Shown here piece after piece: positions 4,122 through 63,840 of a stretch of 64,000 nt of DNA. This stretch comes from an uncultured Prevotella sp. (GTDB lineage Bacteria; Bacteroidota; Bacteroidia; Bacteroidales; Bacteroidaceae): positions 19,202 to 83,201 of the forward strand of contig ONAJ01000003.1 in assembly GCA_900315775.1 (NCBI GenBank), written 5' to 3'. The position numbers were made by a program, and so were the translations under genes. The notes below the pieces were generated by a model. That model was not told where the DNA came from and made no database searches. It was given only the letters and a program-made list of their open reading frames with translations. Numbering within the stretch: the first letter of the stretch is position 1; the number at the start of each line of letters is the position of its first letter.

Positions 4122-4123
4122 AG

Positions 4124-4157
4124 ACAAACAAATTATTTTTAAGTCTAACACATAAAT
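4124..4157 (+). repeat. 34-bp direct repeat, copy 1
   Basis: Matches 4874-4907 at 33 of 34 positions; both contain TTTTTAAGTCTAACACATAA. It sits in the leader of the HEPN gene. The second copy lies just ahead of the cargo gene at 4918, so the two copies bracket the HEPN + MNT2 pair. Confidence 0.9.
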
Positions 4158-4174
4158 AGAATATAAGAAAACTG

Positions 4175-4585
4175 ATGGCAAACAAAGAGCGGGCCGAGAA
4201 ATGGCTTAGAATCGTAACAGAGGACATGAGCGTAGCGGAAGACCTTTTCAAAACGGGTCACTGGCTCTATGTCGCCTTTATGTGCCATCAAGTTGTAGAA
4301 AAAACTTTAAAGGCATATTGGTGTATTTCTCGAGAAGACGATCCTCCATTCATTCATGACCACAAACGTATAGCAGAAGGATGTGGACTTTACACCAAAA
4401 TGGACGATGCGCAGAAGTTATTTCTCTCAACTATTAGACAATTAAACATCGAAGCCAGATATCAAGAATACAAAGACGAGATTGCTCGTCATATTAACGA
4501 AGAAAGAGCAAAACAAATTTTAAGTTCTACTAAAGACTTACACGAATGGATACTTCAAAGATACTCCGAAAAGATGAAGCACTAA
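4175..4585 (+). CDS. HEPN domain protein
   Basis: A 136-residue all-helical protein of the HEPN type. The N-terminal part (AEKWLRIVTEDMSVAEDLF), the central CHQVVEKTLKAYW helix and the HDHKRIAE segment are characteristic of HEPN proteins found next to MNT genes. The usual RNase motif R-x4-6-H is not clearly present: after IEARYQEYK the next His is further away (ARHI), so ribonuclease activity is uncertain. The gene lies between two nucleotidyltransferases and overlaps the second by 40 bp. Role inferred: toxin or substrate-binding partner in an MNT-HEPN module. Confidence 0.82.
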   Translation: MANKERAEKWLRIVTEDMSVAEDLFKTGHWLYVAFMCHQVVEKTLKAYWCISREDDPPFIHDHKRIAEGCGLYTKMDDAQKLFLSTIRQLNIEARYQEYKDEIARHINEERAKQILSSTKDLHEWILQRYSEKMKH

Positions 4586-4866
4586 ACCTTGTAAGAAAAT
4601 ACAAGGCAGCCATCGCTCCACGTTTTGAGCCAGGAACAAAAGTTATGATGTTTGGCTCTTACGCTAAGGGGCATCCTCACGAATGGAGCGATATAGACGT
4701 TGCAGTCATCGTCCCCAAGATTGAAAGCGACAAGTGGTTTGACACAGCTGTTTCACTTAGTCAGGATGTTGACGGAATAAGTCTTCTCATAGAGCCAATT
4801 TTATTGGAGAACGGAGAAGATTCGCCAATATATCGGGAAGTAATGCGTACTGGCGTAGCAGTTTAA
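4546..4866 (+). CDS. Minimal nucleotidyltransferase (MNT) 2
   Basis: A 106-residue nucleotidyltransferase-domain protein with GSYAKG (37-42) and SDID (Asp49, Asp51); Glu83 (LLIEP) could supply the third acidic ligand. It is clearly diverged from MNT1, so this is not a fresh duplication. The ATG at 4546 lies inside the HEPN gene, giving a 40-bp overlap. No later Met is possible before the GSYAKG motif except those abutting it (VMMFGSY), so translational coupling to HEPN is likely. Confidence 0.83.
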   Translation: MDTSKILRKDEALNLVRKYKAAIAPRFEPGTKVMMFGSYAKGHPHEWSDIDVAVIVPKIESDKWFDTAVSLSQDVDGISLLIEPILLENGEDSPIYREVMRTGVAV

Positions 4867-4917: not shown

Positions 4918-7023
4918 ATGAAACAAAAAAACATTTTCAAAAAACTATTAACTTTAGTTCTCCTGCTCGTCGCAAGTACGACTGGAGCGTGGGCGGATGA
5001 TACAGAGGTAACTATCAATTTTGGTAGTACAGAAGGTTATTGGGCAGCTCACAATGATGCTTCTTATACTGATAGCGATTCACGAACATGGACGAGAACT
5101 TTTTCCGCTGGAGGAAAAAGTTCTTATAGTACGAATTATTCACAGTTTGGTAACGCTTCTAACACTTGTACTGATTTGGAGTTTATAGCAACGGCAGGTG
5201 AAGACATGACACTTACTGCTTTCTCTGTAACAATGTCTGGTGCTAGTGGAGGAAGTAGTCCTACAACAGGAACAATTTATCTTTACAAAAAAAGTGGTGA
5301 TACTGAAACGCAATTAGCAACGGCTTCTGTCAGTGGAACAGATAATGTTATATGTAGTATTACTTCTAATCAGGCTTTTTCTAGTACAGATGAATTGGAA
5401 GTAAAATACATTGGCACAAACAAAGCTATTCGTGTCAGCAAATTAACATATTCATATACAACAGGTGGTGGCAGTTCAGTTACAGCTCCAACATTTAATG
5501 TTGCTTCTGGTGCGGTAACAGCAGGTACTACAGTATCATTGACACAGGCAACAGCTGACGAAATTCGTTATACCACCGATGGCACAGCACCAACAACAAC
5601 TACAGGAACAGTATATAGTACACCTATCGCAATTACAAAACCTGTAACAATTAAAGCTATTGCTGTTGAGGGTGGTGTTGCAAGTTCTGTGGCAACAGCG
5701 ACATATACTATTAGTGTTACAACACCAACAATTACTGGTGGAGCAAATGTAACTATTACTGGTGATGAGGGTTGTACATTCTATTATACTACAGCAGTGG
5801 GAGATAACGTACCCGAAAACCCAAATAATAATAGTACAGAATATACTGCACCATTTACTCCCGCAGATGGAACTAAAATAAAGGCAATAGCATACGACGC
5901 CTATGGCAACAAGAGTGATGTAACTACTGTTTTCACCTTTAAGTATATGCCACTTAATCCTAAGAACATTAACAGCAATTACTATGTTAAGGTAACTGAT
6001 GCAAGCACCCTTGAGAATGGTGATGCTATATTAATTGTTTGTGAAGAACATAATTCTGCGATGAGCACAACACAGAATACAAATAATCGTAGTGATGCTT
6101 CAGTTTCTATTGCTTCTGGGGTTATACAAAGTCCTTCTGCAAGTGTTCAGAAGATTGTACTTGTAAAAAAGACCGAAAAAATAAGCGATGCTGATACAGA
6201 CGTATTCTACTTCTATACTGGTGCAGCAGGTTATCTTTATGCTGCCGCAAGTGGTTCAAATTATTTGAGAACAGCAGTTCTTCCAAGTGAAGACGCAAGA
6301 GCAACAATTGAAATTTCTGGTGGTGATGCCGCAATATTATTCACAGGATCCAATAGCCGTAATGACTTAAGACATAATAACCCAAGTCATATCTTCAGTT
6401 GCTATGCATCTACCGCTACTCAGGACAAAGTTCAAATCTACAAAGAAGTATTAGCCTCTGTGGATGTAACCGATGCTAAATATGCCACATATGTAACAGC
6501 ATATGACGTTGACTTCGCAGCATCTACTGGCGTAACAGCTTACAAGGTAACTGGTGCTAACGGTAAGATTGAGCTCGAAGAGGTTGACGCTGCTCCAAAG
6601 GGAACTCCTCTGGTTATCGCTGCTGAAGAAAATACATACGTACTGAATGTTGCTGCAAGCACACCGGCTGCTGTAGCTGGTAATTTACTGAAGGCTGCTG
6701 ACGGAACCCAGACTGGCAACGGCGACGGTAACTTCTACGTTCTTGGTAAGGATAGCCATGGTAAGGTAGGCTTCGGTCCTCTGGGTGATGGTGTAACACT
6801 TGCAGTAGGTAAGGCTTACATCGATGGCACAGAAGTAACAGCTAAGGGCTTCCTCCCATTCGTAATCGGTGACGAGGAGAACGAGACAACTTCTATCAAC
6901 TCAATTGAGAATGGAGAATCGAGAATTGAGAATTATGATTACTTTAACCTCAGTGGTCAGCGCGTAGGCAAGGGCTATAAGGGTATTGTAGTAGTGAATG
7001 GTAAGAAATTCGTGAGAAAGTAA
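4918..7023 (+). CDS. Secreted multidomain protein with T9SS-type C-terminal tail (cargo A)
   Basis: A 701-residue exported protein. The signal peptide is clear: basic start, Leu-rich core, likely cleavage after AWA at residue 26. A beta-rich N-terminal domain (about 27-183) is followed by a chitobiase/hexosaminidase C-terminal-like repeat (about 189-266; IRYTTDGTAP, KAIAV), a second diverged copy (about 268-343), and a Thr/Ala-rich region. The last 25 residues (FNLSGQRVG..YKGIVVVNGKK) resemble type IX sorting tails. It has no recognisable catalytic domain; adhesion or glycan binding is inferred. DNA for residues about 662-675 is a 7-bp repeat related to extragenic DNA at 14921. A small poly-Glu protein gene follows. 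Confidence 0.82.
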   Translation: MKQKNIFKKLLTLVLLLVASTTGAWADDTEVTINFGSTEGYWAAHNDASYTDSDSRTWTRTFSAGGKSSYSTNYSQFGNASNTCTDLEFIATAGEDMTLTAFSVTMSGASGGSSPTTGTIYLYKKSGDTETQLATASVSGTDNVICSITSNQAFSSTDELEVKYIGTNKAIRVSKLTYSYTTGGGSSVTAPTFNVASGAVTAGTTVSLTQATADEIRYTTDGTAPTTTTGTVYSTPIAITKPVTIKAIAVEGGVASSVATATYTISVTTPTITGGANVTITGDEGCTFYYTTAVGDNVPENPNNNSTEYTAPFTPADGTKIKAIAYDAYGNKSDVTTVFTFKYMPLNPKNINSNYYVKVTDASTLENGDAILIVCEEHNSAMSTTQNTNNRSDASVSIASGVIQSPSASVQKIVLVKKTEKISDADTDVFYFYTGAAGYLYAAASGSNYLRTAVLPSEDARATIEISGGDAAILFTGSNSRNDLRHNNPSHIFSCYASTATQDKVQIYKEVLASVDVTDAKYATYVTAYDVDFAASTGVTAYKVTGANGKIELEEVDAAPKGTPLVIAAEENTYVLNVAASTPAAVAGNLLKAADGTQTGNGDGNFYVLGKDSHGKVGFGPLGDGVTLAVGKAYIDGTEVTAKGFLPFVIGDEENETTSINSIENGESRIENYDYFNLSGQRVGKGYKGIVVVNGKKFVRK
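6904..6943 (+). repeat. 7-bp tandem repeat inside the cargo A coding sequence
   Basis: Units of the form ATTGAGA / ATGGAGA / ATCGAGA / ATTGAGA run from 6904 to 6931 and continue into TTATGATTACT. Positions 6921-6943 are a perfect 23-bp match to the reverse complement of 14921-14943. Confidence 0.9.
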
Positions 7024-7024
7024 A

Positions 7025-7089
7025 AACCCTCCCCAGCCCCATTCCCGAGCAAGGCTCGCCTACCCGTAGCCTTTCCCGAGGGAGGGGTT
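7025..7089. terminator. GC-rich inverted repeat between cargo A and its small partner
   Basis: AACCCTCCCC (7025-7034) is nearly complementary to GGGAGGGGTT (7080-7089). It could act as an attenuator or 3' processing stem. A similar C/G-rich hairpin lies at the equivalent place in the second cassette (40152-40176). Confidence 0.4.
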
Positions 7090-7130
7090 ACAGGGGGCTT
7101 GATAATACTAAATAACTAAGTAAATTAACG

Positions 7131-7325
7131 ATGATGAAAAAATATATTAAGCCAAATACTGACGTGCAGGCAATAGAACTGCAGCAGATGATAGCAGAAA
7201 GTCTTCCAAAGAGCAACGAACAGGTTACAAACCCACTGAGTAAGGGTGAGTACATCATGGAAGATGTCGATATCTTCGGAACGAAGAAAGACAAATGGGC
7301 TGTTGAAGAGGAAGAAGAGGAGTAA
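7131..7325 (+). CDS. Small poly-Glu-tailed protein, partner of cargo A
   Basis: Encodes 64 residues (63 if the second ATG at 7134 is used, which aligns better with its paralogue). No signal peptide, no membrane segment and no Cys. It shares YIKPNTD, then IELQ and a nearby Met, a central GEY, and a Trp followed by a Glu-only tail with the 60-residue protein at 39932-40114. Both lie just downstream of a T9SS-type cargo gene on the same strand, which supports a real, conserved gene. Function unknown; a peptide precursor, chaperone or export accessory would all fit. The stop is 8 bp before the M3 peptidase start, so co-transcription is possible. Confidence 0.75.
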   Translation: MMKKYIKPNTDVQAIELQQMIAESLPKSNEQVTNPLSKGEYIMEDVDIFGTKKDKWAVEEEEEE

Positions 7326-7332
7326 GAAGTAG

Positions 7333-9429
7333 ATGAGAAAGAACCCTTTTTTCGAAAAATATAATACTCCACACGAGGTAGTACCCTTCGACAAAATAAA
7401 GATGAAGGACTACGAGGAAGCGTTCATGGAGGGTATCCGTAGAGAAAAAGAACAGATAGAACGGATAGTGAACAACCCCGCGAAGCCTACATTCGACAAT
7501 ACCATCCTCGACGAAGAGGACGACGAAGGATACTACGACCTGCTTGACAGAGTGTCATCGGTGTTCTACAACCTGATGAGCGCAGAGACAAACGACGAAA
7601 TAGACGCGCTGGCGGAGAAAATGCAGCCTATACTGACAAAACACGCCAACGACATACGTCTGGACCCGAGACTCTTTGAACGCGTAAAGGCGGTACACCT
7701 GCACCACAGACGACTGACAGCAGAGGAACAGAAGCTACTGGATGACGAATATGAAGGGTTCGTACGCAGCGGAGCACTACTGGACGAGGCTGGCAAAGAA
7801 CGACTGCGCCAGCTGACAGAAGAGGCTTCAATGCTCTCACTACAATTCTCGCAAAACCTACTGAAAGAAAACAAAGCGTTCAAGCTGCACATCACCGACG
7901 AGGCACAACTCGACGGACTGCCCGAGACGGCACGCGAAGCAGCAGCTCTGTGCGCTAAAGAGAATGGCAAGGAGGGGTGGATGTTTACCCTCGACTCCCC
8001 CTCCTATGGTCCATTAATGACTTATAGCACTCAGCGAGAACTGAGAAAGAAAATGTACATGGCGCGAAATACGGTATGTACTCACAAAAACAAATCGAAC
8101 AACATTGCTATCTGCCAACGACTGGTGAACCTGAGGCGCGAACTGGCACAACTTCTTGGATACAAGACCTATGCCGACTACGTGCTGAAACACCGTATGG
8201 CAACGAATACACGAAACGTGTATAAACTGCTTAACAGCCTCATCGACGCCTATAAACCAACGGCGCTGAAGGAAAGGGCTGCTATAGAGAAGGAATTTGA
8301 AAAGTGCGAGAAGCGAGATGCGAAGTGCGGGACAATGGAGCCCTGGGACGTTTCGTTCTACTCGCACAAACTGCAACTGAAGAAGTATAACCTGGACGCA
8401 GAGATGCTGCGCCCGTACTTCGAGCTGAAGAAGGTGATAGACGGAGTCTTCGGACTCGCCAACCGCCTCTACGGCATAACATTCAAGGAGAATAAAGACA
8501 TTCCAGTGTATCACCCCGACGTGAAGGCATACGAGGTGTTCGACAAGGACGGCTCGTACCTGGCGGTATTCTACGCTGACTTCCACCCTCGCGACGGAAA
8601 ACAAAGTGGTGCCTGGATGACAGAATATCAAGGACAGTGGATCAAGAGAGGAGAGAGGAGAGAGAAGAGAGGAGAGAAGAACCACAAGTGGGTGCCGGGT
8701 GAGAACGTGAGACCGCACGTTAGTGTGGTGATGAACCTGACGAAACCTACTGCGGAAAAACCGGCGCTGCTGACGCTGGGCGAGGTGGAGACATTCCTCC
8801 ACGAGTTCGGACACTCGCTGCACGAGATGTTCTCAAACGTGAGGTTCGAGAGCCAGTCGGGAACAAACGTGTGGTGGGACTTCGTAGAGCTGCCGTCGCA
8901 GTTCATGGAGAACTACGCCATAGAGAAGGAGTTCCTGCGCACCTTCGCCTTCCACTACCAGACGGGAGAGCCTATGCCCGACGAACTGATTGAGAGAATA
9001 GTAAAGAGTCGTAACTTCAACGTGGCAATGGACTGCCTGCGACAGGTGAGCTTCGGACTCCTGGATATGGCATACTACACACAGAAGGACGAGTTTAAAG
9101 AGGATATAATACCTTTCGAAAAAGAAGCGTGGAAGAAAGCTATCATAAGCAAGCAGCTGCCCGACACGTGTATGACGGTACAGTTCTCGCACATCATGGC
9201 GGGAGGCTATGCCGCCGGATACTACAGCTACAAATGGGCTGAGGTACTCGACGCCGACGCCTTCGCAGTGTTCAAGCGCGAGGGTATCTTCAACCCCAAG
9301 ACGGCACAGCGCTTCCGCGACTGCGTACTGTCGAAGGGTAGCACGGACCACCCAATGAAACTGTATAAGAACTTCAGGGGCGGAGAACCTACAATAGATG
9401 CGTTGCTGAAGAGGAATGGAATAAAATAA
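7333..9429 (+). CDS. dcp: M3 family metallopeptidase (peptidyl-dipeptidase Dcp-like)
   Basis: A 698-residue zinc oligopeptidase. HEFGH at residues 490-494 gives two zinc-binding His and the catalytic Glu491; Glu519 in FVELPSQ is the expected third ligand. There is no signal peptide, so it probably acts in the cytoplasm on small peptides released by other proteases. Two short charged, low-complexity insertions stand out, one encoded by 8301-8329 (EKCEKRDAKCG) and one by 8645-8680 (RGERREKRGEKN). They sit where family members have short loops. The dCMP deaminase gene starts 1 bp after the stop. Confidence 0.92.
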   Translation: MRKNPFFEKYNTPHEVVPFDKIKMKDYEEAFMEGIRREKEQIERIVNNPAKPTFDNTILDEEDDEGYYDLLDRVSSVFYNLMSAETNDEIDALAEKMQPILTKHANDIRLDPRLFERVKAVHLHHRRLTAEEQKLLDDEYEGFVRSGALLDEAGKERLRQLTEEASMLSLQFSQNLLKENKAFKLHITDEAQLDGLPETAREAAALCAKENGKEGWMFTLDSPSYGPLMTYSTQRELRKKMYMARNTVCTHKNKSNNIAICQRLVNLRRELAQLLGYKTYADYVLKHRMATNTRNVYKLLNSLIDAYKPTALKERAAIEKEFEKCEKRDAKCGTMEPWDVSFYSHKLQLKKYNLDAEMLRPYFELKKVIDGVFGLANRLYGITFKENKDIPVYHPDVKAYEVFDKDGSYLAVFYADFHPRDGKQSGAWMTEYQGQWIKRGERREKRGEKNHKWVPGENVRPHVSVVMNLTKPTAEKPALLTLGEVETFLHEFGHSLHEMFSNVRFESQSGTNVWWDFVELPSQFMENYAIEKEFLRTFAFHYQTGEPMPDELIERIVKSRNFNVAMDCLRQVSFGLLDMAYYTQKDEFKEDIIPFEKEAWKKAIISKQLPDTCMTVQFSHIMAGGYAAGYYSYKWAEVLDADAFAVFKREGIFNPKTAQRFRDCVLSKGSTDHPMKLYKNFRGGEPTIDALLKRNGIK

Positions 9430-39931: not shown

Positions 39932-40114
39932 TTACTCCTCCTCTTCGTCCCAAAGAGAGTTAGAAGAGATATTTGTTTGTTTTGCATCGTCATATTCACC
40001 AGTAATAGCATTCTTTCCTGCTGTTTTGCCTGTAAGTTGTGGTGTAGTAGCAGGATTCATTAACTGCAACTCTATCTTGTGCAAATCTGTATTTGGCTTA
40101 ATATATCTTTTCAT
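39932..40114 (-). CDS. Small poly-Glu-tailed protein, partner of cargo B
   Basis: 60 residues, no Cys, no signal peptide. It begins MKRYIKPNTDLHKIELQLM, closely matching the N-terminus of the 64-residue protein at 7131. It has the same central GEY and ends LWDEEEE. The middle is Thr/Asn/Lys-rich and not conserved between the two. It lies 72 bp after the cargo B stop, mirroring cassette A, and has its own strong terminator. Function unknown. Confidence 0.75.
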   Translation of the reverse strand: MKRYIKPNTDLHKIELQLMNPATTPQLTGKTAGKNAITGEYDDAKQTNISSNSLWDEEEE

Positions 40115-40151
40115 CTTCTTGTTTTTTTATTTGTAATTAGCTTTCCGTTGA

Positions 40152-40186: not shown

Positions 40187-43100
40187 TTATTTTCTCAGGT
40201 ACTTTTTTCCATTCACTATTACGATGCCCTTATAGTCTGAACCTACCTTCTGACCACTGAGGTTATAACGAACAACATCTTCTGTTGTATTTCCAACAGA
40301 GCGGATGCCGTCGGTTTCTTCTTCGGCAAAGATAATTGTCAGAGGCTTAGCGCCAGCACCTTCAACGTTGTAGCTTGTACTCAGGTATGCGCGATTTGGT
40401 TTCAGATAGCCGTCAGTAGCCATGTTGAACTTACCCTGCTGCAAGATATAGTTATAAACGTTAGCTTCAGGATTCCATACCACCTGAGTACGCACTAGCA
40501 CACCTACCATCTGGTTGCCAGTAACGTCAGAAGCGTCCTTCGTCGTAACAGGAATGCTATAAGTATCAGGAGTCTCACAGTAAAGGACAACGCCCTCACC
40601 AGCAGGCACAACGTCAACCTTAGTCAGAGTTACCTTACCTTTTCCATCCACGCTTGCCTTATAAGCCTTCACATCAGTTTCACTGAAGTCGAGTTTATTC
40701 ATAAAGCAGTATGAGAGGTAATGAGACTCACCTATAGTGACGCTGGTTGATAATGATGTGGTATAGTTACTATAGCCATATACAGGAGCACTCTTATAAA
40801 TCTTAAAGCCAGAAACGCGAACACCATTTGATGTACCACCACAAGTTGAGGTAATGCGCAGTTTACCAGTACCAGACAAAGCTGTGCCGCCGGTATAAGT
40901 ATTAGTTCCTGTTTGAGAACTGCCTGAAACTGTTACTTCCTTCCATGTATTTGTACCATCTCCGATAGTTAATCTATTGTAAGATGGACCGCCATAAGTT
41001 CCGCCATATACAACAACCTTCGTAATGATACTTAAGTCAAACTCCGCAGACTCAACATATCCTCCTTCATGCAACAAATAATATGTGTTATTATCTGTGT
41101 ATTCTCCATCTACTGTCAAGGTACCCGCACTATACGAATACTCTTGGTCAACAACATCAGTCGTTCCTGTCTGTGTCTGATTTGCAAATACCGCATAAAT
41201 AGTCTTTGTTGATGTCGGAGTAATTGAGTTTCCAGTAGTCATAGTAGGAGCAACGTCTGTGGTTGCTACTTCTGTATCTGACCAGCCCAGGAATACATAA
41301 TCTCCTATAGCAGCTACATCAGGAACTGTGATGGCTGCTCCATAAGACTCTTGACGACGTACCTCATCAGTATTACCATTGATTGAGAACGTTACTGTAT
41401 AGCGAGGACGAACAGTAACGGAGTACTCTTTTGTCAATTCCTTATATGGAGTATAATAACCCGTTCCCTCATCATACTCGTCATAAGCTGCCGCTGTGGC
41501 TACAATTGTAGCAGTACCACAATCACCATTAAGTACAACAGCACCTGTACTTGAGTTAAGAGAAGTTATAATATCGTCACTACCATCTTTGATGCTATAT
41601 GTTACAGCGCCCTTGACTGTTGTCTTGGTAACTTCCTGACCAGCGAAACTGGTCACAGCATCCGTTTCTTCGTCTAAGTTATAAGAATTATTGGTAAATG
41701 ACATCACCTGATTTTGAGGTGCATTGTGAGTCTTTGTAAACTGGCTCTGCTCATACATATAGTAACGAATATTATCATTGTAACGACCAATATAACCCAC
41801 GAAGTTACCCTTCTCGTCTTTGGTCAAAGTAATACCTGTCAGTCGAGCATATATGCTAATAGTATTAGTTCCGTCTGTAGTGATTTTTCCGCCAGAGGTT
41901 TGAGAACTTGTCATTGCTGTGTTAATAGACGCCCCATTGATGGCGATTTTACGTCCCTCATAAGTGGCATAGTTCTCTTTTGTCAAATCAGTAATAGCAA
42001 CCTCGACAGCATCAGGAACAATACCGCCTGCAACAGGAGTTTGGTCAATTGCTGTAATCTGATATTCGTTGTTGAGTCTTTTAATCTGACCTGTGATAGC
42101 ACCAGTAAACTTCTTACCAGCCTCCCAGTCGCCAGTAGCACAACTTGCATATACTGCTACATCACCACTCTGCAGATAAGCATGAGAGCCACTTACATAA
42201 GTAATAACCAAATCACTTGCTAAGTCAGCAGTAAAGTCAACAGCAGTAGAACTTGTTGCTTGAGCTTTGATACCCGCAAGGGTTGTCGCACTCTTGACAG
42301 TTACTTCGTATGTGTCATATGCTGCTGCACTAACCCCCAGTTCTGCATCAACGCTGGCAGTAATGGTGGTAGTACCAATACCAACAGCAGTAACAACACC
42401 CTCACTATTGACAGTTGCTACACCTGTATTGCTTGATGTATAGTTGATAGTCTTGCTAACTTCTGTTACCGTAGCAGTGTTTGTATTTGTCGTTGTTCCA
42501 TCCAGATAGAGGATTACTGGATCCGCGCTATCAAAGGCTACGGTAGGAGTAATAATGGCAGAGGGATTAGAATTGTAAGCAGTCTTTGGGATATATAATT
42601 TCATTGCAGTATATTGCCTGCTAGAGTAGTCGTTATGATATTCTGTTTTCCACCCATTATATTGTTCCAACGCAGCTTTATCACTTGCAGCATTGCGAAG
42701 CGCAAACAGATTATCAGCATAAGTATTCAACTCGATTATCCATTTATTGTTTGTGCCTGACCAATCAATAGGTTTATCATTATCACCGCTGGTTGATAAA
42801 GTCTCCTGACTTAACGTACCACTTGCACCAGTAAGCACATAACCTGTAGTGTTATCACCACTTAAAACAAACATCTGATCTGAAGCAACTGTTATTTCGT
42901 TATTTGTTTCAGTTGGAGCATTAACGATAGAAGCGTCGTGAGTTAAAATTTTTGTGCCATACTGAGATATAACTGCAATTTTCTTTGAAGCATTAATCTG
43001 ATTCAAAGATGTTACACGAGTATAAGCATAACCAGTTTCTGAAAGTGTATATACTGCATGAAGTACTGTTGCACTTGTAGGATAATATGTAGAACCTGCT

Positions 43101-43954
43101 TTATAAAGAGTTGGTTGTGTTGTCGTATTATCAACTGCATCCGCAGCCCAGCCAGCGAACTCCCATCCTGCAACTCCTGTTGTTGCTGTAGGAAGTGTTA
43201 CACCTGCTCCACCAATTTCTTCAGTAGCACTTGGTGTATCACAAGAACCACCTTCTTCATTGAAAGTTACAGTATAAATAGGTATAGCTTCGAAGTTAAT
43301 TGTCACAGTTGTATTAGCAGAAGGAGTAACTGTAAATGCATTTCCATTCTGAGATACCGTAGCAGAATTTTCAGGACTGACAGTGTAAGGAGTGGAAGTA
43401 CTTACACGATAGCCGTCAGCAGGATTTGCGGTAATTACACTACCACTCAAAGATACTGTACCATAACTATTGTTATTAGATTGTGCAGTAATTGTATAGG
43501 CAGGAGCTGCAGGGGTATAGGTAACAACTATATCTGTTATTCTTGCCTGTGCACTTGCATTATTGGTAAGAGTAATAGCTGATGTAGAAGATCCTGACCA
43601 AGTTGCCGTGCTGCTACTAACACTAACACTAGACTTATCAGAAGCTGTCCATGTCTTTATATATCCTGATGATGTTGCCGTAAGTACTATGCTAGTAATA
43701 GTAACACCATTATTTGGCGTTATGACCAAATAATTGTTTGCATACACTTGGAGATAACTGGTATTTCCATTGCCCTTTCCTGTTATGGTAATATCTCCCT
43801 TTGTAGCTCCTGTCAAGTCTCCACCTGAACCAGAACTACCTTGTCCTGAGAAGTCTGTGTAAGAAAAATTTGCTTCCGCCGCCCACACACTCGAACTTCC
43901 GACTATCAGGGCGAATAGAAGGAAGAAACTCTTTAAAAAGTTTGTTTGTTTCAT
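40187..43954 (-). CDS. Very large secreted multidomain protein with T9SS-type tail (cargo B)
   Basis: 1255 residues. Signal peptide 1-25 (cleavage after VWA or WAA). A Ser/Thr/Gly-rich N-terminal region is followed by an InlB/Listeria-Bacteroides-type repeat (about 227-302; WEFAGWA), a Big_2-like Ig fold (SNTGVATVNSEGVVTAVGIGTTTI), an OB-like domain (ITGQIKRLNNEYQITAID), a second InlB-like repeat (VFLGWSD) and a long C-terminal part. It ends with YNLSGQKVG..YKGIVIVNGKK, nearly the same tail as cargo A. No catalytic motif is seen; adhesion or surface-layer function is inferred. It is low in Cys and AT-richer than the housekeeping genes. Confidence 0.82.
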   Translation of the reverse strand: MKQTNFLKSFFLLFALIVGSSSVWAAEANFSYTDFSGQGSSGSGGDLTGATKGDITITGKGNGNTSYLQVYANNYLVITPNNGVTITSIVLTATSSGYIKTWTASDKSSVSVSSSTATWSGSSTSAITLTNNASAQARITDIVVTYTPAAPAYTITAQSNNNSYGTVSLSGSVITANPADGYRVSTSTPYTVSPENSATVSQNGNAFTVTPSANTTVTINFEAIPIYTVTFNEEGGSCDTPSATEEIGGAGVTLPTATTGVAGWEFAGWAADAVDNTTTQPTLYKAGSTYYPTSATVLHAVYTLSETGYAYTRVTSLNQINASKKIAVISQYGTKILTHDASIVNAPTETNNEITVASDQMFVLSGDNTTGYVLTGASGTLSQETLSTSGDNDKPIDWSGTNNKWIIELNTYADNLFALRNAASDKAALEQYNGWKTEYHNDYSSRQYTAMKLYIPKTAYNSNPSAIITPTVAFDSADPVILYLDGTTTNTNTATVTEVSKTINYTSSNTGVATVNSEGVVTAVGIGTTTITASVDAELGVSAAAYDTYEVTVKSATTLAGIKAQATSSTAVDFTADLASDLVITYVSGSHAYLQSGDVAVYASCATGDWEAGKKFTGAITGQIKRLNNEYQITAIDQTPVAGGIVPDAVEVAITDLTKENYATYEGRKIAINGASINTAMTSSQTSGGKITTDGTNTISIYARLTGITLTKDEKGNFVGYIGRYNDNIRYYMYEQSQFTKTHNAPQNQVMSFTNNSYNLDEETDAVTSFAGQEVTKTTVKGAVTYSIKDGSDDIITSLNSSTGAVVLNGDCGTATIVATAAAYDEYDEGTGYYTPYKELTKEYSVTVRPRYTVTFSINGNTDEVRRQESYGAAITVPDVAAIGDYVFLGWSDTEVATTDVAPTMTTGNSITPTSTKTIYAVFANQTQTGTTDVVDQEYSYSAGTLTVDGEYTDNNTYYLLHEGGYVESAEFDLSIITKVVVYGGTYGGPSYNRLTIGDGTNTWKEVTVSGSSQTGTNTYTGGTALSGTGKLRITSTCGGTSNGVRVSGFKIYKSAPVYGYSNYTTSLSTSVTIGESHYLSYCFMNKLDFSETDVKAYKASVDGKGKVTLTKVDVVPAGEGVVLYCETPDTYSIPVTTKDASDVTGNQMVGVLVRTQVVWNPEANVYNYILQQGKFNMATDGYLKPNRAYLSTSYNVEGAGAKPLTIIFAEEETDGIRSVGNTTEDVVRYNLSGQKVGSDYKGIVIVNGKKYLRK

Positions 43955-57875: not shown

Positions 57876-58961
57876 TTAATGTCTTTGTCTTCTTACAGTA
57901 ACACGTGCTGAGGAGCCGCTGCCTGACGAAGAACTTGAAGAATGACTCTTCTTTGTCTTCACCTCTGAAGAACTGCCGCCAGAACGACGGTTCTTCTTGC
58001 GTGCCTTCTTTGCCTTCTTGGTATCACCAGCTTTGGCAATGCTGTCCAGAGAGTCCTTACGTTCCTGATCTCCCCAGATATGCTTCTCGAATGTCGCAAG
58101 CTCCATCTCTATTCGCTTCTGCTCCGCTGTAAGGGCTGAGTCGGTATTGCAATACTGTGCCAACGTCCTTCCAAGCATATTAGTGGTCTTGTAGATATTA
58201 CCACAATACATATTCTTCGTGAAGTAGTCGTCAATACTCATCGTCGCAGCATTGTTGAGGTTTGACGTCATTATCATCTGCTTGCTGAGGAAAGGAGCAA
58301 TATCGTCGTACTTCACCCAGAAGAGAGGATACTTTGCTGTGCCGTCACCGAAATCGTCCTCACGACTCATAATAGGACAAATAGCTATTACCTTAGTATG
58401 GAACGTTGCTGATGACTGATCGTAGTATGCACTCTCCTTAACATAATATGACTTCACCTCTCGTGAAGGGATGTCGCTGTCGTCGAGACGTACCTTGCCG
58501 TTGTTCTTCTCGTAATAGATGTGATAGTTGTCAAGGAATGCCAAAGGCTTCACACGTGCTGAGTCGGTGAACACCTCGTTACCGTCAAGACGATACTCGT
58601 ATGCCTTTACCTGACCACGCATCATCAACTTGAACATGTAGCAGAACAGGTTCATCTGACTACCCATAGGCTCTACCGGATAGTAAAGACCGGCATTGGC
58701 ATCCTTTGTAAGGTCTATCTCACGATATATATCACGACGCCATACTACATCTTCCGACATTACCGGTGCTGTTGGGAATGAGATTTGTGCACGATTAGTA
58801 ATGTTCTGTGTGCCAGACTTCTGTTGCTGCTGCTTCTGCTGCTGTCTCGATTGTTGCTGTTTCGGTTGCTGCTGTTGCTGCTGAGCACGACGTGCTGCTG
58901 GCTGAGCTGAAATAGCTACTGACACACTTACTAACAGTCCTATCAAAAATAGTCTTTTCAT
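57876..58961 (-). CDS. porN: T9SS component PorN/GldN
   Basis: 361 residues. Signal peptide (about 1-19). A Gln-rich tract (about 26-48, runs such as QQQQQQPKQQQ), then the GldN core beginning VVWRRDIYREIDLTKDANAGLYYPVEP and continuing to about 320. The C-terminal tail is Lys/Ser/Arg-rich (SSSEVKTKKSHSSSSSSGSG). GldN binds PorK in the periplasmic ring of the type IX system. It is the last por gene of the cluster. Confidence 0.92.
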   Translation of the reverse strand: MKRLFLIGLLVSVSVAISAQPAARRAQQQQQQPKQQQSRQQQKQQQQKSGTQNITNRAQISFPTAPVMSEDVVWRRDIYREIDLTKDANAGLYYPVEPMGSQMNLFCYMFKLMMRGQVKAYEYRLDGNEVFTDSARVKPLAFLDNYHIYYEKNNGKVRLDDSDIPSREVKSYYVKESAYYDQSSATFHTKVIAICPIMSREDDFGDGTAKYPLFWVKYDDIAPFLSKQMIMTSNLNNAATMSIDDYFTKNMYCGNIYKTTNMLGRTLAQYCNTDSALTAEQKRIEMELATFEKHIWGDQERKDSLDSIAKAGDTKKAKKARKKNRRSGGSSSEVKTKKSHSSSSSSGSGSSARVTVRRQRH

Positions 58962-58978
58962 ATCTTTTTTCTTTCTTC

Positions 58979-60529
58979 TTATTTCACAATTACTTCCATA
59001 GAACTTGGGAGTGTACGCGTAATACCATCAGGACCTATCGCTGTTACACGAGAGATGTAGAAACGACGGCTACGTGAGAGTTTGCGGAACGCATCACGCT
59101 GACGTTCTGAGAACGTGGAACCGTTGCTTACCATTGGTACTGCATTACCCATATTATCAAAGAATACAGTCTCGAAACTCTGTACCTTGAACTCTATATC
59201 CAGAAGTCCGTCGTCAATGGCTGCCTTCAAAGTGTTTGCATCCATAAGTGCTGACTTAGCAAGGCCACCACCCTTGAAACGGTTGTCGCCGACAACGATG
59301 TAAGGTGTTGGGTCGGGCAACTTACGAACGTGGAAGGTGAACTGCCCCATCTGCTTTGGAGAGCCGCTCTGCAGTGATGACACCGTGATGGTTACATCCT
59401 TGCCGACAGCTGCAGGACGGGCAATATACTTTCCTGGTCCTACGGGTTGTAGTGTTCCTCCCGCCATAGTTGCCGATACCTTGTTGAGTGGTACTCCCGG
59501 CACACTGACGCTGATGGGGTTACTGTAACCTGCATAGAGCATATTCATAAGGTCGGCACTGACGGTAGCACTTGGGTCAACAACAGTATATTTCTGATTG
59601 AAGTCACGACGAACGAGTTCTCCGTTACCATTCTGCATAGTGATGTAACCTGTGAGGTTAAAGTCACCCGTCTTGCCTGCTATGAATTCATAGGTGTTAT
59701 GAGGCAGATTAACCTCGCGACCACCTATATATATCTGCGGGCGCTGGGTGGTATCTATTGCCGCCATAACTATCTGTGCAGAGAACTTATCACCTCTTAC
59801 CACAGTCTGTGCATTAGGTATCACGAAAGCATCGAGCTTATTAACGCGGATATCTCGTACGTCGATATTTGACACCAGCGTATGGAGTACCTCTCCCTCA
59901 GCATAACGTATGTCGCTCTGCAACTTTGACAACAGGGTGACAGCGGCTGCTGTAGGCATTCCCTCGAACATATACTCCTGCCAGTTCTTTCCCATAGCAT
60001 GTGCATGTTTGGGAAGTTCTGTCGTGAGGTTGCTCTTTATGATGTTACGCTGACGTTCGTCATTAACCATCTTCAACATCTGCTCGCGATAGTTATTGAT
60101 AGCGTCGTGCAACTGCTTTCCTTTTCCTGTTCCAGGAGCGAGCATTATCTGTGTTGCTGCCTCAAGGTCTTCCTTGTTGCGTATATCGTGAACATCGCCG
60201 TTCTTGCCGTCAGCCTCACGAACAATAGCCTCCTTTAATTCCTGTGCGAAATTAAACAGGGAGTCACTCATCCGCTTTACTGATGTAGCCTTGTCGAACC
60301 AAGCCTTCACCTTCTCCGGATTAGCCTTCATCTGTGCTTCAAAGTCGCTGTAGATAGAAGCATTCTCCTTCGACGAGTTTGACGTAGTGCGACTGAGGCT
60401 TTCCTCAACGAGTGAAAAGCCTTCCAACACTTCCGTAGAAACATTCAACGCAAGCATTGCCATGAGGACCACATACATCAGATTAATCATTTTCTGACGT
60501 GGCGATACTGGTCGTTTCTTTATTGCCAT
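58979..60529 (-). CDS. porM: T9SS component PorM/GldM
   Basis: 516 residues. The N-terminus RQKMINLMYVVLMAMLALNVS is the signature membrane helix. A long periplasmic part of stacked domains follows (coiled-coil D1 about 40-220, then Ig-like D2-D4; IYIGGREVNLPHNTYEF, VSVPGVPLNKVSATM). It forms the motor with PorL and transduces proton-motive force to PorKN. Confidence 0.95.
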   Translation of the reverse strand: MAIKKRPVSPRQKMINLMYVVLMAMLALNVSTEVLEGFSLVEESLSRTTSNSSKENASIYSDFEAQMKANPEKVKAWFDKATSVKRMSDSLFNFAQELKEAIVREADGKNGDVHDIRNKEDLEAATQIMLAPGTGKGKQLHDAINNYREQMLKMVNDERQRNIIKSNLTTELPKHAHAMGKNWQEYMFEGMPTAAAVTLLSKLQSDIRYAEGEVLHTLVSNIDVRDIRVNKLDAFVIPNAQTVVRGDKFSAQIVMAAIDTTQRPQIYIGGREVNLPHNTYEFIAGKTGDFNLTGYITMQNGNGELVRRDFNQKYTVVDPSATVSADLMNMLYAGYSNPISVSVPGVPLNKVSATMAGGTLQPVGPGKYIARPAAVGKDVTITVSSLQSGSPKQMGQFTFHVRKLPDPTPYIVVGDNRFKGGGLAKSALMDANTLKAAIDDGLLDIEFKVQSFETVFFDNMGNAVPMVSNGSTFSERQRDAFRKLSRSRRFYISRVTAIGPDGITRTLPSSMEVIVK

Positions 60530-60550
60530 GTTCTATTTGTCGTTGGACGT

Positions 60551-61414
60551 TTAACGTATATCGTTTGCAGCGGGGGCAGCAGGGGCGGCAGCACGCATAT
60601 TTACTGTCATCGCCTCTATCATACGAGCATAAATCTTGTTGAGCTGGTCTATCTGCTCTGCCATCTTACGTGTCTGCTCGTTGATTTCGTCAATTGTGCC
60701 TATCTGCTTGCTTGCACTCTTAAGCTGCATCTCGTACACCTTGCATATTCCTGTGAGTGTTCGGTTGAGATTCTCCATCTCCTCGGAGTCGGTAGTAAGA
60801 CGCTGACTCTGCTCGGAAACTTTCTCCAATACCTCTGTGAGTTTCTTAAGCTCCTCAACGTAATTGGTTGTAGCCTCTGCCATATCGGGAGCTACAGGCT
60901 GTGGAAGCTCGCCTACTCCGCCACCGATTATCACAGTGCCGCCACCACCGGCAACGCCACCTTCAACAGCAGCACCTTCGGCAACAGCACCACCAGCGAC
61001 AGTACCTCCACCAACAACGCCACCGCCAACAACGCCACCGCCGACAACGCCACCACCAACGACACCTCCGCCGCCGATAATTGTTGCGCCACCGACAATA
61101 GTCTGCTGACCTTCAACAGCTGCGCCCTCTGCTTCAACACCCTCTTCCTGAGGATGAATATCAAGATTCATGCCGTCGGTAGTCTTGTCGAATGGACGGT
61201 CGAACGCTGAAATAAAGAACACGAACACCTCTGTTCCCATTCCGAGGAAGAGGAAGAAGTTTGCTCCCGGGAGGTGAGTAAGTTTAAACAGCGTACCTAA
61301 AATAACGATAGATGCACCCCAACTGTAGGCATAGTTCAGGAACGTCTGTCCCGGTACACTATCCATCCATTTCTGTAGTCGATAGACTACGTTGAATTTA
61401 CTATATACTGTCAT
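60551..61414 (-). CDS. porL: T9SS motor component PorL/GldL with Gly-rich insert
   Basis: 287 residues. Two transmembrane helices (about 31-47 and 52-70) separated by a short loop with THLPGANFF; the second carries the conserved Glu62 expected in the proton path. After a cytoplasmic start (residues 71-100), residues 108-168 are almost pure Gly/Val/Ala (GGGVV repeats), then a coiled coil (about 185-265). The repeat insert is encoded by 15-bp tandem DNA. Partner of PorM. Confidence 0.93.
   Translation of the reverse strand: MTVYSKFNVVYRLQKWMDSVPGQTFLNYAYSWGASIVILGTLFKLTHLPGANFFLFLGMGTEVFVFFISAFDRPFDKTTDGMNLDIHPQEEGVEAEGAAVEGQQTIVGGATIIGGGGVVGGGVVGGGVVGGGVVGGGTVAGGAVAEGAAVEGGVAGGGGTVIIGGGVGELPQPVAPDMAEATTNYVEELKKLTEVLEKVSEQSQRLTTDSEEMENLNRTLTGICKVYEMQLKSASKQIGTIDEINEQTRKMAEQIDQLNKIYARMIEAMTVNMRAAAPAAPAANDIR
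61004..61075 (-). repeat. 15-bp tandem repeat inside porL
   Basis: Encodes GGGGVV followed by three GGGVV copies and a further GGG. The near-identical 15-bp units are prone to slippage, so the linker length may vary between strains. Confidence 0.8.
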
Positions 61415-61423
61415 ATCTTTTTT

Positions 61424-62869
61424 CTATTTACGTTTCTTACTACCCTTTTGTTTTACGCTTGCTGTTGTCGCCAATGAGCGTACGCAGCGGAAGCCGATGT
61501 ATGAACGCGGCTGATTCTGATATTCCCAAGAACGCCATGCTGAACGCATATAGCTCTCTGGGTCCTTCCAGGAACCACCACGAACACTCTTCTTCTTTAA
61601 CTTATATGGGTCTTCCTTTGCTGCATTGTATGAGAGCTGAGGGTTGAGGTCGTTCATCGCCTCTACACCTGCTTCAGTATATATCGTACTTGTCCACTCT
61701 GCCACATTACCTGCCATATCGAACAGTCCGTTGGTATTTGAAGAGTATATTCCGACCTTACTTGTGATGAGGTTACCATCCTTGGTATAGTTACCGCGGT
61801 CGGGCTTGAAGTTAGCAAAGTAACAGCCTCTGTCGCTCTTCATGTCCTCGTTCTCCCAAGGGAATTCATTGCCGTCAACACCACGGGCTGCATACTCCCA
61901 CTCTGCCTCTGTCGGCAGACGGTAGCGCTGTACGTAACGTGCCTCAGGACCGAGACCTTTGAGAAGATATTCTGTTCTCCAGGCACAGAATGCATTTGCC
62001 TGCTCCCATGTAACACCTACTACAGGATATTCGTTATAAGCGGGATTGCTGAAGTAGTAACGCATATATCCTTCGTTCTCCGAATTCTGGAAGTCGTTAA
62101 CCCAACAGGTGGTGTCTGGATATATGTTTACAATGTAAGTATTCAGGAAGTCCCAAGGTCCGCTCAAAGGACGGTCTATCGTCTCGCGTACTATACGTCC
62201 CTCGTCGTCAATATACGCTGTGTCCTTGGAGATCATAACCACATCATTGGGATTTATTACCACGTCGGTATTCAGGTTACGATCTTGTGGATTAAGACGG
62301 TTACGACGAAGTGCTGCCGTAGTATAGTCATACACCTCGTAACGATAATTCATCTGACTCCAGTCGAGCATCTTCTCGCCAGTAACGGGATTTGTCACGT
62401 AGAGACTTTCTATGGCACGCTGCTCGTCCTCGTTAGGCTTACGTGGGAGATTCTTCTTCCAGTTAAGATGAGGAGTAACAGGATCACCGTTCTTGTCCTC
62501 GGTAATCATATAGGATTCATCACCACCGTATGCTGGGTCTGCAAGTCTGGTGCGGAGTATAGAGTCACGAACCCATAATACAAACTGCTTGTACTTTGAA
62601 TTGGTAACCTCCGTCTCGTCCATCCAGAAACCGTCAACAGAGATATCCTTCACTGGAGTTTTCTTTCCCCACAGCGAATCTTCCTTTTCCATACCCATAC
62701 GTAGGAAGCCGCGCTTCACAAGAGTCATGCCGTAAGGTGTTGGCTCGGAGAAATTCTTTCCTCCGCCTACGCCAACGACTTCACCGCCTCCCTTCAGCGA
62801 AGACTTGCTTCCGAAACATCCTGTTAAGCATAGTGCAATAATAAAAACACCAAATACTTTTTTCATCAT
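61424..62869 (-). CDS. porK: T9SS component PorK/GldK lipoprotein
   Basis: 481 residues from ATG at 62869; earlier Mets at 62887 and 62902 are in frame, but this one gives a compact lipoprotein signal ending in the lipobox LTGC. The body is a formylglycine-generating-enzyme-like domain (VKRGFLRMGMEKEDSLWG, DGFWMDETEVTNSKYKQFV, YRLPTEAEWEYAARG, MAGNVAEWTST, SVRGGSWKD, FRCVRS). Here it serves as a structural ring protein rather than an enzyme. Confidence 0.94.
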   Translation of the reverse strand: MMKKVFGVFIIALCLTGCFGSKSSLKGGGEVVGVGGGKNFSEPTPYGMTLVKRGFLRMGMEKEDSLWGKKTPVKDISVDGFWMDETEVTNSKYKQFVLWVRDSILRTRLADPAYGGDESYMITEDKNGDPVTPHLNWKKNLPRKPNEDEQRAIESLYVTNPVTGEKMLDWSQMNYRYEVYDYTTAALRRNRLNPQDRNLNTDVVINPNDVVMISKDTAYIDDEGRIVRETIDRPLSGPWDFLNTYIVNIYPDTTCWVNDFQNSENEGYMRYYFSNPAYNEYPVVGVTWEQANAFCAWRTEYLLKGLGPEARYVQRYRLPTEAEWEYAARGVDGNEFPWENEDMKSDRGCYFANFKPDRGNYTKDGNLITSKVGIYSSNTNGLFDMAGNVAEWTSTIYTEAGVEAMNDLNPQLSYNAAKEDPYKLKKKSVRGGSWKDPESYMRSAWRSWEYQNQPRSYIGFRCVRSLATTASVKQKGSKKRK

Positions 62870-62901
62870 ATATCTATTATTATTCATTCTTTTTCTTCTC
62901 A

Positions 62902-63840
62902 CTACAGTATTCTCACACTCTTATGTTTGTTCTTTCCCTTCTTGTAAAGGTTCAGATTAGTCTTGTATCCTACGAACAGCTCATGACTGCCGTTACGCAT
63001 ATTTATTCCCGAGGTATATGCCTCATAGCTGTATCCGACGTTCACACCGTGAAAACTTCCTCCGATGAGCACTGTCACCGATGTCTTGGGACTGTACGAT
63101 GCACCAGCATAAAGAATTCTCTTTTCGTTGGTATATACCATTCGCGCTGTCACATCACCTCGATAAACAGTACCATCGGTCTTCACTAAGAATGACGTTG
63201 GTATTGATAAAAACGGATTTCTCAGTTTAATATTGTATCCACCAGTCAAATAATATGTTCTATCTATCTTTAATTCGTTAACATCGCCCAACTCTACCAC
63301 CGGTGACGTAACGTGTTGTGAAGATACTCCGACATACCACTGATTGTGCGTATAATACAGTCCGGCAGCAAGGTCAAAGGCATTACCGTTTATCGAGGAC
63401 TTACTCAAAGCGGGGTCGTCCGGGTCAATATAATCCACCTTACTTCCGTCGAACTGCTCATTGATAAAACCTCCTTGTACACCTATTCCTAACTGTCCTC
63501 CGAAGATTCGTAACTTATAAGAATATTGTGCCGCTACTTTCTGGTGTGTAAAAAGACCTATCTGGTCGTTAAACAGCTGAAGACCAACACCATGATAGGC
63601 ATTCAACAGGTACAAAGGCATGTCGGCAGCAATATACATAGTGCGGGGATTGTTCTCAAAGCCTACAAGACTCATTGCGTAGGCACCAACTATGTTCAGC
63701 TTCGACTCCTTTCCTGCCGACGCAGGGTTATACGACGGTTCCATGTCAAAATAATGGCTGAATGAAGGGTCGTACTGAGCCTTCATACCTACTGTTGCAA
63801 CAACAGAAACAATTATTATGGACAGATAACGTCTAAACAC
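62902..63840 (-). CDS. porP: T9SS component PorP/SprF
   Basis: 312 residues. Signal peptide (about 1-21, cut after KAQ). AQYDPSFSHYFDMEPSYNPASAGKE holds the NPA-G motif of PorP/SprF. Beta-barrel strands follow. Outer-membrane partner of the PorK ring and of surface-exposed cargo. First gene of porPKLMN, 58 bp after the rRNA terminator. No clear promoter is visible. Confidence 0.93.
   Translation of the reverse strand: MFRRYLSIIIVSVVATVGMKAQYDPSFSHYFDMEPSYNPASAGKESKLNIVGAYAMSLVGFENNPRTMYIAADMPLYLLNAYHGVGLQLFNDQIGLFTHQKVAAQYSYKLRIFGGQLGIGVQGGFINEQFDGSKVDYIDPDDPALSKSSINGNAFDLAAGLYYTHNQWYVGVSSQHVTSPVVELGDVNELKIDRTYYLTGGYNIKLRNPFLSIPTSFLVKTDGTVYRGDVTARMVYTNEKRILYAGASYSPKTSVTVLIGGSFHGVNVGYSYEAYTSGINMRNGSHELFVGYKTNLNLYKKGKNKHKSVRIL

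Follow-up and report, generated by a model that had tools for sequence, protein, structure and literature searches.

Two gene cassettes in a 64,000-nucleotide stretch of an uncultured Prevotella sp. genome (assembly GCA_900315775.1, contig ONAJ01000003.1; the whole stretch is called the window below) each pair a gene for a surface protein with a tail of the type IX secretion system (T9SS) type (the cargo) with a gene for a 60-64-aa protein 3′ of it (the small gene). We consider it likely that the small genes encode precursors of a pathway of the RiPP type (ribosomally synthesized and post-translationally modified peptides) that resembles the LPP pathway of Bacillota (Popov et al., Nat Commun 2026, PMC13381572), that they are served by shared enzymes, and that the product acts together with the cargos, which carry a particular domain ahead of the tail. 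The cassettes were noticed in an initial annotation of the window, and the observation proved real and general: the four open reading frames (ORFs) are as it described (Table 1), cargos A and B share the C-terminal pattern NLSGQ(R/K)VG..YKGIV(V/I)VNGKK, small proteins A and B have in common YIKPNTD, IELQ, GEY and an end with Trp and poly-Glu, and the T9SS core genes porKLMN lie in the same window. Both cargos appear to have what is expected of a T9SS cargo, namely a signal peptide, a sorting tail and T9SS genes in the same genome; the signal-peptide-like starts and the tails were judged by eye from the sequence.

Small genes are paired with tailed cargos within and across genomes

The genome that contains the window (the home genome) is 98% complete, in 40 contigs. 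When all its proteins were searched with small protein A, 11 matched at E<=10, the query among them, and each of the 11 follows, at 4-107 bp, an ORF with a tail of this type, so chance is excluded as the cause of the pairing. Two of the paralogs are 90-92% identical to small protein A; an extra match, on contig C38, is a fragment that lacks the leader and has no tailed ORF nearby. A tail profile detected 67 T9SS-type tails in the home genome (E<=10), and when the downstream sides of all 67 were read, 20 were followed at 3-133 bp by a same-strand ORF of 43-69 aa with a YxxP motif. A link to T9SS tails in general, as an extension of the initial annotation, is thereby ruled out. A Trp-Ala/Gly signal peptide was also tried as a mark of partnered cargos: it was found in 12/20 versus 4/25 in the home genome (p = 0.004, with a loose pattern), and in only 2 of 18 in other genomes, so it is not a general mark.

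The pairing recurs in relatives. A pattern search found nine named loci, seven in Prevotella/Prevotellaceae metagenome-assembled genomes (MAGs), one in a Bacteroidales MAG and one in a Bacilli MAG. Small-protein matches (E<=0.1) are present in 43 of 60 genomes of the genus (home genome included), and in 24 of the 29 best-hit loci from the other same-genus genomes a tailed ORF lies directly upstream. At the family level, a profile of 30 small-protein sequences had matches (E<=0.01) in 106 of the 151 genomes searched, which span 30 genera; the 30 best-scoring loci were taken, one being from the home genome and one lying at a contig end, and each of the other 28, which have enough upstream sequence, has a tailed ORF upstream. 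The small protein is thus, as had been proposed, a dedicated co-encoded partner, of one class of T9SS cargo (24/29 genus and 28/28 family loci).

The T9SS translocon protein SprA was detected in 111 of the 151 family genomes; 95 have both SprA and small-protein hits, 16 SprA only, 11 small-protein hits only and 29 neither (p = 3e-11, a statistic that, like the other co-occurrence statistics here, ignores phylogeny). Weaker family hits were sampled solely in the 11 genomes with small-protein hits and no detected SprA. In two of these, hits again lie behind tails (12 of 14 in G069, the exceptions being L177 and L179; 4 of 4 in G190), and SprA was therefore probably missed by the search there; in two G069 loci the small gene overlaps the cargo by 4 bp. 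The other nine, labelled T9SS-free below by the SprA search alone, behave differently, as discussed below. As a separate observation, at one locus (L203:2979-4313) behind a domain-bearing tailed cargo, the YxxP ORF is in frame with a longer ORF bearing a signal-peptide-like stretch (444 aa in total), either a fusion or a lost stop.

A domain before the tail marks the partnered cargos

A region of about 150 aa before the tail can be aligned across the 20 partnered cargos of the home genome (the pre-tail domain). With the HMMER filters off, a model of these 20 cargos matched 20/20 partnered cargos from 20 other genomes and 0/25 unpartnered home-genome cargos; similarly, a model built from the 20 foreign cargos matched 20/20 partnered and 0/25 unpartnered cargos of the home genome, the 25 being those fetched whole out of 47, mostly with better-scoring tails and not a random draw. 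Under default filters the home-only model found 18/20 home and 6/20 foreign partnered cargos, the foreign-only model 8/20 and 19/20, and the combined model 19/20 and 19/20, each with 0/25 unpartnered. The domain was missed in most foreign cargos because the default bias filter of HMMER hid it: with that filter off, the home-only model found 19-20 of the 20 foreign cargos, and still 0/25 unpartnered. Among all 67 home-genome tails, scanned within the sequence stretches retrieved, the combined model (E<1e-3) gave 20 with both domain and small gene, 4 with the domain only, 0 with the small gene only and 43 with neither (Fisher p = 1.8e-13); since this model contains the 20 partnered cargos, the independent test is the foreign-only model (20/20 versus 0/25). 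The small partner therefore tracks the pre-tail domain, not the tail in general.

The same dependence is seen in the family: the domain was found in 104 of the 151 genomes (E<=1e-4), with 94 having both domain and small-protein hits, 10 the domain only, 12 small-protein hits only and 35 neither (p = 2e-15), and copy numbers of the two correlate (rho 0.85 over all 151 genomes and 0.72 within the 94, counting at most 26 scored candidates per genome). When loci were chosen by best domain score, 28 of 30 (one from the home genome) had a YxxP ORF 8-118 bp downstream, as did 15 of the 17 cargos absent from the model. Across other genomes, identity of the domain to the first row of the alignment is 12-47%. 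We found no Pfam match in the pre-tail domain of the window cargos (E<=1) and no convincing sequence match to it in the PDB (best E=0.12).

Judged by sequence, the bodies of the cargos are mostly unrelated once the domain is removed: with 240 C-terminal residues cut, the 20 partnered home-genome cargos fall into groups of 6, 4 and 2 plus 8 singles. Shared ancestry of the bodies was considered as the cause of the pairing and rejected, since one main homology group appears only with a 90-residue cut, which leaves much of the domain. The two window cargos, whose lengths (701 and 1255 aa) the initial annotation called unrelated, are not wholly unrelated themselves, since they share this domain. 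In 16 home-genome pairs (near-duplicates dropped), the distances of the peptide core covary weakly with those of the domain (Mantel r 0.29, p 0.025), those of the leader do not (r -0.06), and the relation of the whole peptide to the cargo body is not clear (r 0.16, p 0.11).

The small proteins resemble RiPP precursors

For the anatomy of the small proteins, 77 distinct sequences were hand-picked from home-genome, genus and family loci, with near-duplicates dropped by eye; they include L177, which lacks a clear upstream tail, and a few sequences were left out (e.g., C31:26546 of the home genome, with a later YxxP). All 77 have YxxP, a conservation that is partly due to selection, since they come from profile searches and YxxP near the start was required for inclusion. 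Counting from the Pro of YxxP, hydrophobic residues recur at P+4, P+7, P+12 and P+13, Ala is at P+14 in 60%, and Ser at P+16 in 51 of 77 (8% background); at P+15-17, 70 have Ser and 76 Ser or Thr. Past P+17 the sequences are variable and acidic (mean net charge -5.8), with Cys in a single protein and Trp within the last 18 residues in 69. AlphaFold2 predicts no fold for small protein A (mean pLDDT 61.5; 82 for the first ten residues). By sequence, the layout is one of leader plus core, and the small proteins look like RiPP precursors; the "precursor" and "secreted peptide" readings, both on the list of the initial annotation, are supported. Two other interpretations of the conserved residues were set aside: A-x-S as a signal-peptidase site cut after the Ser was replaced by cleavage before A-x-S, following the LPP paper, and a C-terminal S-[ILV]-W-D as the kinase site is a weak alternative, with Ser at -2 of the Trp in just 24 of 69.

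Codon comparisons (Nei-Gojobori) of 12 close small-gene pairs indicate that the small genes are mostly under purifying selection: dN/dS is 0.10-0.33 in nine of the ten estimable pairs and 0.63 in one, single values being rough since the genes are short. Of the two non-estimable pairs, one is identical and one has 4 nonsynonymous and 0 synonymous changes. Two of the 12 pairs include small protein A; none includes small protein B.

PqqD and kinase genes, often with a candidate peptidase gene, accompany the small genes

The home genome encodes a stand-alone PqqD-family protein, i.e., a RiPP recognition element (RRE), and an HPrK-like kinase whose gene overlaps that of a candidate S24/S26-type peptidase (Table 1). 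Sequence models match the kinase weakly; its AlphaFold2 model (pLDDT 94.4) suggests a kinase fold, with PDB matches to PEPCK (E to 3e-7, TM ~0.5) and HPrK/P (E=1e-5, TM 0.32). In the candidate peptidase, SMxPF, HR and GDGN are invariant in 12 sequences. Among the 151 family genomes, PqqD is found in 123 and the kinase in 122, the two together in 122 (PqqD alone in 1, neither in 28). Small-protein hits occur with PqqD in 101 genomes, alone in 5, PqqD alone in 22 and neither in 23; for the kinase the numbers are 101, 5, 21 and 24. All 11 small-positive genomes without detected SprA have PqqD, versus 11 of the 29 with neither small-protein hits nor SprA. The nucleotidyltransferase family PF14907 (NTP_transf_5) is found in 108 of the 151 genomes; it is ruled out as a required part, being missing from the home genome.

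Kinase, peptidase and PqqD genes lie together at nine loci of T9SS-positive genomes (L216, L219, L221, L243, L244, L253, L255, L256, and L257) and six of genomes without detected SprA (L212, L224, L225, L229, L246, and L247); some of these 15 add an ABC exporter or NTP_transf_5, and other loci had part of the trio. ABC exporters were seen in the clusters L212, L216, L224, L225, and L247, and the L216 cluster directly adjoins sprA.

Small genes are also found within or beside such clusters (L212, L213-L215, L228, and L230). For example, in the T9SS-free genome G121 (L212), kinase, peptidase, PqqD, NTP_transf_5, ABC exporter and small gene follow one another on one strand; in G095, G199 and G072 (L213-L215), PqqD, NTP_transf_5 and kinase are accompanied, 6-7 kb from PqqD, by a small gene and a lipoprotein-like ORF, and no peptidase was seen at these three loci. 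The ORFs before the small gene in L213-L215 look polysaccharide-export-like, a further likeness to LPP. At no fewer than six T9SS-free loci (L193, L194, L195, L196, L199, and L201) the small gene immediately precedes, on its 5′ side, an ORF whose start is by eye of the lipoprotein type; these ORFs may be fimbrillin-like, one sub-threshold Fimbrillin_C match being found among those scanned. In T9SS-free genomes, the 18 loci scanned around small genes or machinery gave no match to the pre-tail domain.

In two T9SS-positive genomes, G108 and G082 (L217 and L245), a row of tailed ORF, small gene and NTP_transf_5 adjoins sprA and also includes PqqD or the peptidase; the domain model matches the cargo of G082 (E=4.5e-5) and not that of G108. 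The peptide next to sprA is in both a divergent, Cys-bearing YxxP peptide (L217:11710-11901, L245:4449-4634), and the profile search lists no small-protein hit in G108. We also observed, in genomes where SprA was not detected, proteins of 140-150 aa that begin in the YxxP manner and are encoded near kinase/peptidase genes (L223:6763-7215 and 8018-8440, L251:6587-7033), perhaps a further class of precursors.

Features of the window cassettes and neighboring genes

Table 1. Cassette features in the window, and candidate maturation enzymes elsewhere in the home genome (C35 and C5 are contigs).
Feature	Position	Strand	Description
Cargo A	4918..7023	+	701-aa surface-protein ORF; signal-peptide-like start, pre-tail domain, T9SS-type tail
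Pre-tail domain, cargo A	6421..6876	+	Stretch used in domain alignment; co-segregates with small gene
C-terminal tail, cargo A	6877..7020	+	T9SS-type; tail profile and sequence by eye
Spacer, cassette A	7028..7098	none	GC-rich inverted repeat
Small gene A	7131..7325	+	64 aa (63 aa from second ATG, 7134); YxxP precursor-like peptide
Predicted leader, small protein A	7134..7193	+	MKKYIKP...MI; from alignment, boundary predicted by analogy to LPP
YxxP, small protein A	7143-7154	+	
Ser23 codon (P+16), small protein A	7200..7202	+	Predicted phosphorylation site, by analogy to LppA Ser3
Cargo B	40187..43954	-	1255-aa surface-protein ORF; signal-peptide-like start, pre-tail domain, T9SS-type tail
Pre-tail domain, cargo B	40334..40789	-	Stretch used in domain alignment
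C-terminal tail, cargo B	40190..40333	-	T9SS-type; tail profile and sequence by eye
Small gene B	39932..40114	-	YxxP precursor-like peptide of 60 aa; P+16/P+17 hold Thr in place of Ser
Spacer element, cassette B	40120-40183		GC-rich inverted repeat
porN, porM, porL, porK	57876..62902	-	T9SS core; GldN, GldM, GldL, GldK models above cut-offs
PqqD-family protein (RRE)	C35:40882-41154		Stand-alone; PF05402 E=4.6e-17
HPrK-like kinase	C5:27935-28834		Invariant SGTGKST; overlaps candidate S24/S26-type peptidase gene

Pfam scans matched Fn3_assoc and CHB_HEX_C_1 in cargo A, and Flg_new and Big_2 in cargo B; no Pfam or NCBIfam tail model matched either cargo, and no family of either database matched small proteins A and B (all at E<=1). 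A GC-rich hairpin, which the initial annotation placed between the genes of both cassettes, is present in both window spacers but is not a constant feature: among 16 of the 20 home-genome spacers, it occurs in all 8 of at least 66 bp (5 by exact CCTCCC..GGGAGG, 3 as variants by eye) and in none of the 8 of at most 21 bp. Being confined to long spacers, it is ruled out as a component of the system; its recurrence in related form across the 8 long spacers suggests a dispersed repeat.

Immediately ahead of cargo A (3822-4866), nucleotidyltransferase, HEPN and second nucleotidyltransferase ORFs stand in a row, a MNT/HEPN-type toxin-antitoxin-like group (Pfam NTP_transf_2/Polbeta, HEPN). A Peptidase_M3 gene (7333-9429, E=7e-135) starts 7 bp past small gene A and is possibly co-transcribed with it; the gene after small gene B is different. 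A weak 23S_rRNA_IVP-type ORF lies downstream of small gene B at 39100-39768 (32.3 bits, just under the Pfam cut-off of 33.8). The ORF after porN (57266-57850) has a TDE1717-type outer-membrane beta-barrel match and a weak PorT/SprT match, below cut-offs.

Comparison with known systems

The initial annotation knew of no named system of this kind, but the LPP system of Bacillota, as described in PMC13381572, is close in its parts list: a SipW-like peptidase, a discrete RRE, an HprK-like kinase, an NTP transferase and an MsbA-like exporter, with precursors carrying YxxPxVLxHQxIxFETxxS. The same source places leader removal after T-1, makes it dependent on the RRE, and reports polyphosphorylation at Ser3 of the core; it describes the role of LPP as unknown and the family as Bacillota-restricted, and "bacteroid" does not occur in the main text. 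Set against that text, the two systems share the YxxP leader, the discrete RRE, the HprK-like kinase, possibly a SipW/archaeal-type signal peptidase (here a candidate), a conserved precursor N-terminus with a variable C-terminus, a Ser near the predicted core start (A-Q-S in LPP and A-x-S here, with one extra residue after the Pro here), and, in many or some relatives of the home genome, an NTP transferase and an ABC exporter. The system here differs in being in Bacteroidota, in having 20 dispersed precursors in the home genome against one to three per LPP cluster, in pairing precursors with surface-protein genes, in the acidic end with Trp, in the Ser position (mostly P+16, P+15 in LPP), and in the home genome having no NTP transferase. 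The YxxP precursor with variable C-terminus, the PqqD-like RRE and the HprK-like kinase are all found; since tests for the full leader consensus and for the NTP transferase were negative, we describe the system as LPP-like rather than placing it within LPP.

Lasso peptides of the paeninodin type, as described in PMC5067487 and PMC7533575, similarly have a PqqD-like B1 protein binding the leader, an HPrK kinase, a nucleotidyltransferase and an exporter; a signal-peptidase-type enzyme is found here instead, and neither a macrolactam synthetase (C) nor a B2 cysteine peptidase was noticed in the clusters read, no model search for them having been made. The NCBIfam HPr-rel-A models (TIGR04352/TIGR04353) likewise combine an HprK-related kinase and a PqqD-family peptide chaperone, but the proteins here are below the curated cut-offs (kinase of L214, 20.7 against 200 bits; PqqD of L216 and of the home genome, 21.3 and 17.7 against 35 bits). 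The few small proteins that were scanned matched no Pfam or NCBIfam family. In prochlorosin-type maturation in trans, a few enzymes serve many dispersed precursors of one genome, as here, with unrelated chemistry; we know of no pairing with surface proteins there. Effector-chaperone pairs of type III secretion likewise have a small acidic partner encoded beside the effector, but here the partner has a leader-type N-terminus, predicted disorder and RiPP-type enzymes. We found no account of the pairing of small gene and surface protein in the open-access PMC literature; it is not described in the available portions of PMC7533575, PMC5067487, PMC10352776, PMC7470986, PMC12710340, and PMC10202324.

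Proposed pathway and alternatives

In the pathway that we propose, the stand-alone PqqD-type RRE would bind the YxxP leader, the HPrK-like kinase would phosphorylate the conserved Ser at the core start (the A-x-S motif, about P+14 to P+16), and the SipW-type signal peptidase would remove the leader; one enzyme set encoded elsewhere (kinase and peptidase on C5, RRE on C35) would serve about 20 dispersed precursors. The product would be a strongly acidic peptide of roughly 30-45 residues, mostly with a Trp near its end. Since the precursor is co-encoded with a domain-bearing T9SS-type surface protein, the product most likely acts with that protein, and may, for example, bind or decorate the pre-tail domain at the cell surface.

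Several observations weigh against this proposal. Regarding the enzymes, the peptidase candidate has weak Peptidase_S24 and sigpep_I_arch hits and an uncertain third catalytic residue, Asp or Glu (S42, H80, D95 and E101 are invariant, in its own numbering); in the home genome, PqqD and kinase are on different contigs, PF14907 has no match, and no ABC exporter was seen beside the machinery, none having been searched for. PqqD and kinase went undetected in 5 of the 106 small-positive genomes (86-94% complete), and PqqD is present in 22 genomes without small-protein hits. Regarding the precursors, the full LPP consensus is not kept (Y, P, the hydrophobic positions and Ser are; HQ and FET are not), and 7 of the 77 small proteins lack Ser at P+15-17, six of them from the home genome, five of these with Thr, including small protein B; Thr is not phosphorylated in LppA, as the text of PMC13381572 has it. 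For the pair G108/G082, dN/dS is 0.33 for the small gene and 0.50 for its cargo, against 0.06 for the kinase.

The pairing, too, has exceptions. Five of the 29 same-genus loci have no upstream tail (L074, L078, L088, L089, and L091); in wider context, the small gene of L078 (L205) is 5′ of a lipoprotein-like ORF, that of L091 (L207) precedes, on the 5′ side, a tailed cargo whose ORF is split in two frames and which has a further small gene at its 3′ end, and L088 (L206) shows neither kind of neighbor. At L031, in Bacilli, a YxxP ORF occurs with no tail, and in the nine T9SS-free genomes none of the 12 hits lies behind a tail (two have <300 bp upstream). In the home genome the small gene is missing behind four domain-bearing tails, all outside the set of 25 unpartnered cargos, and small-protein hits occur without the domain in 12 genomes. 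In addition, the whole peptide correlates with the tail (r 0.43, p 0.005) above the 0.29 of core and domain, and co-duplication would also explain the covariation of peptide and domain; the neglect of phylogeny in the co-occurrence statistics counts here as well.

Three other explanations were considered. A RiPP-type or plain secreted peptide may have its own job, such as signalling or inter-bacterial competition, being placed behind the cargo for shared expression and making no contact with it; peptides of the LPP and lasso types are mostly treated as natural products, and the domain model is blank in the 18 T9SS-free loci, some of which keep peptide and machinery. We regard this as unlikely, since shared expression leaves unexplained why 20 of 24 domain-bearing tails but 0 of 43 domain-free tails have the small gene, and the pairing recurs in 20 other genomes. 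The small protein could instead serve its own cargo in the cytosol, as a dedicated chaperone or export adaptor, with a gene layout like that of type III secretion chaperones, as the initial annotation had also offered; it is small and acidic, has no signal-peptide-like start, lies directly 3′ of the cargo (with the 4-bp overlap noted in G069), and is specific for one cargo class. As the best reading this did not hold up, and we consider it improbable: a conserved YxxP N-terminus with a variable rest and predicted disorder is ill-suited to a folding chaperone, small genes also occur in genomes without detected SprA, some of them beside PqqD/HPrK/peptidase clusters and lipoproteins, and the co-occurrence with PqqD and kinase goes unexplained. 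Under passive linkage, the 3′ end of the cargo (domain and tail) and the small ORF would have moved together as a cassette that duplicates or recombines, with no coupling of function. This would suit the mostly unrelated bodies that share a travelling domain, tail and small gene, the correlated small-protein and tail distances (0.43-0.46) and the two paralogs 90-92% identical to small protein A. We regard it as very unlikely, since the pairing holds in 20 other genomes although identity is low there (12-47% for the domain), and since purifying selection is seen in most close pairs of small genes.

The reading as an LPP-like pathway whose product acts with the cargo has a further, more tentative extension, which we see as possible: the pathway may be a surface-protein accessory, in which each domain-bearing T9SS protein has its own polyphosphorylated peptide, bound or covalently joined to the pre-tail domain, setting adhesion, matrix or metal-ion properties, and T9SS-free Bacteroidales would pair the same kind of peptide with lipoprotein-type surface proteins. 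If true, this would be the first function for the LPP family. PMC13381572 calls LPP confined to Bacillota; here, a similar set of kinase, RRE and candidate peptidase recurs across a large family of Bacteroidota. There is a one-to-one tie between the likely precursors of this set and surface proteins that carry a defined domain, adding a layer of cognate partners to T9SS cargo; because of this tie, the role of such peptides is directly testable.

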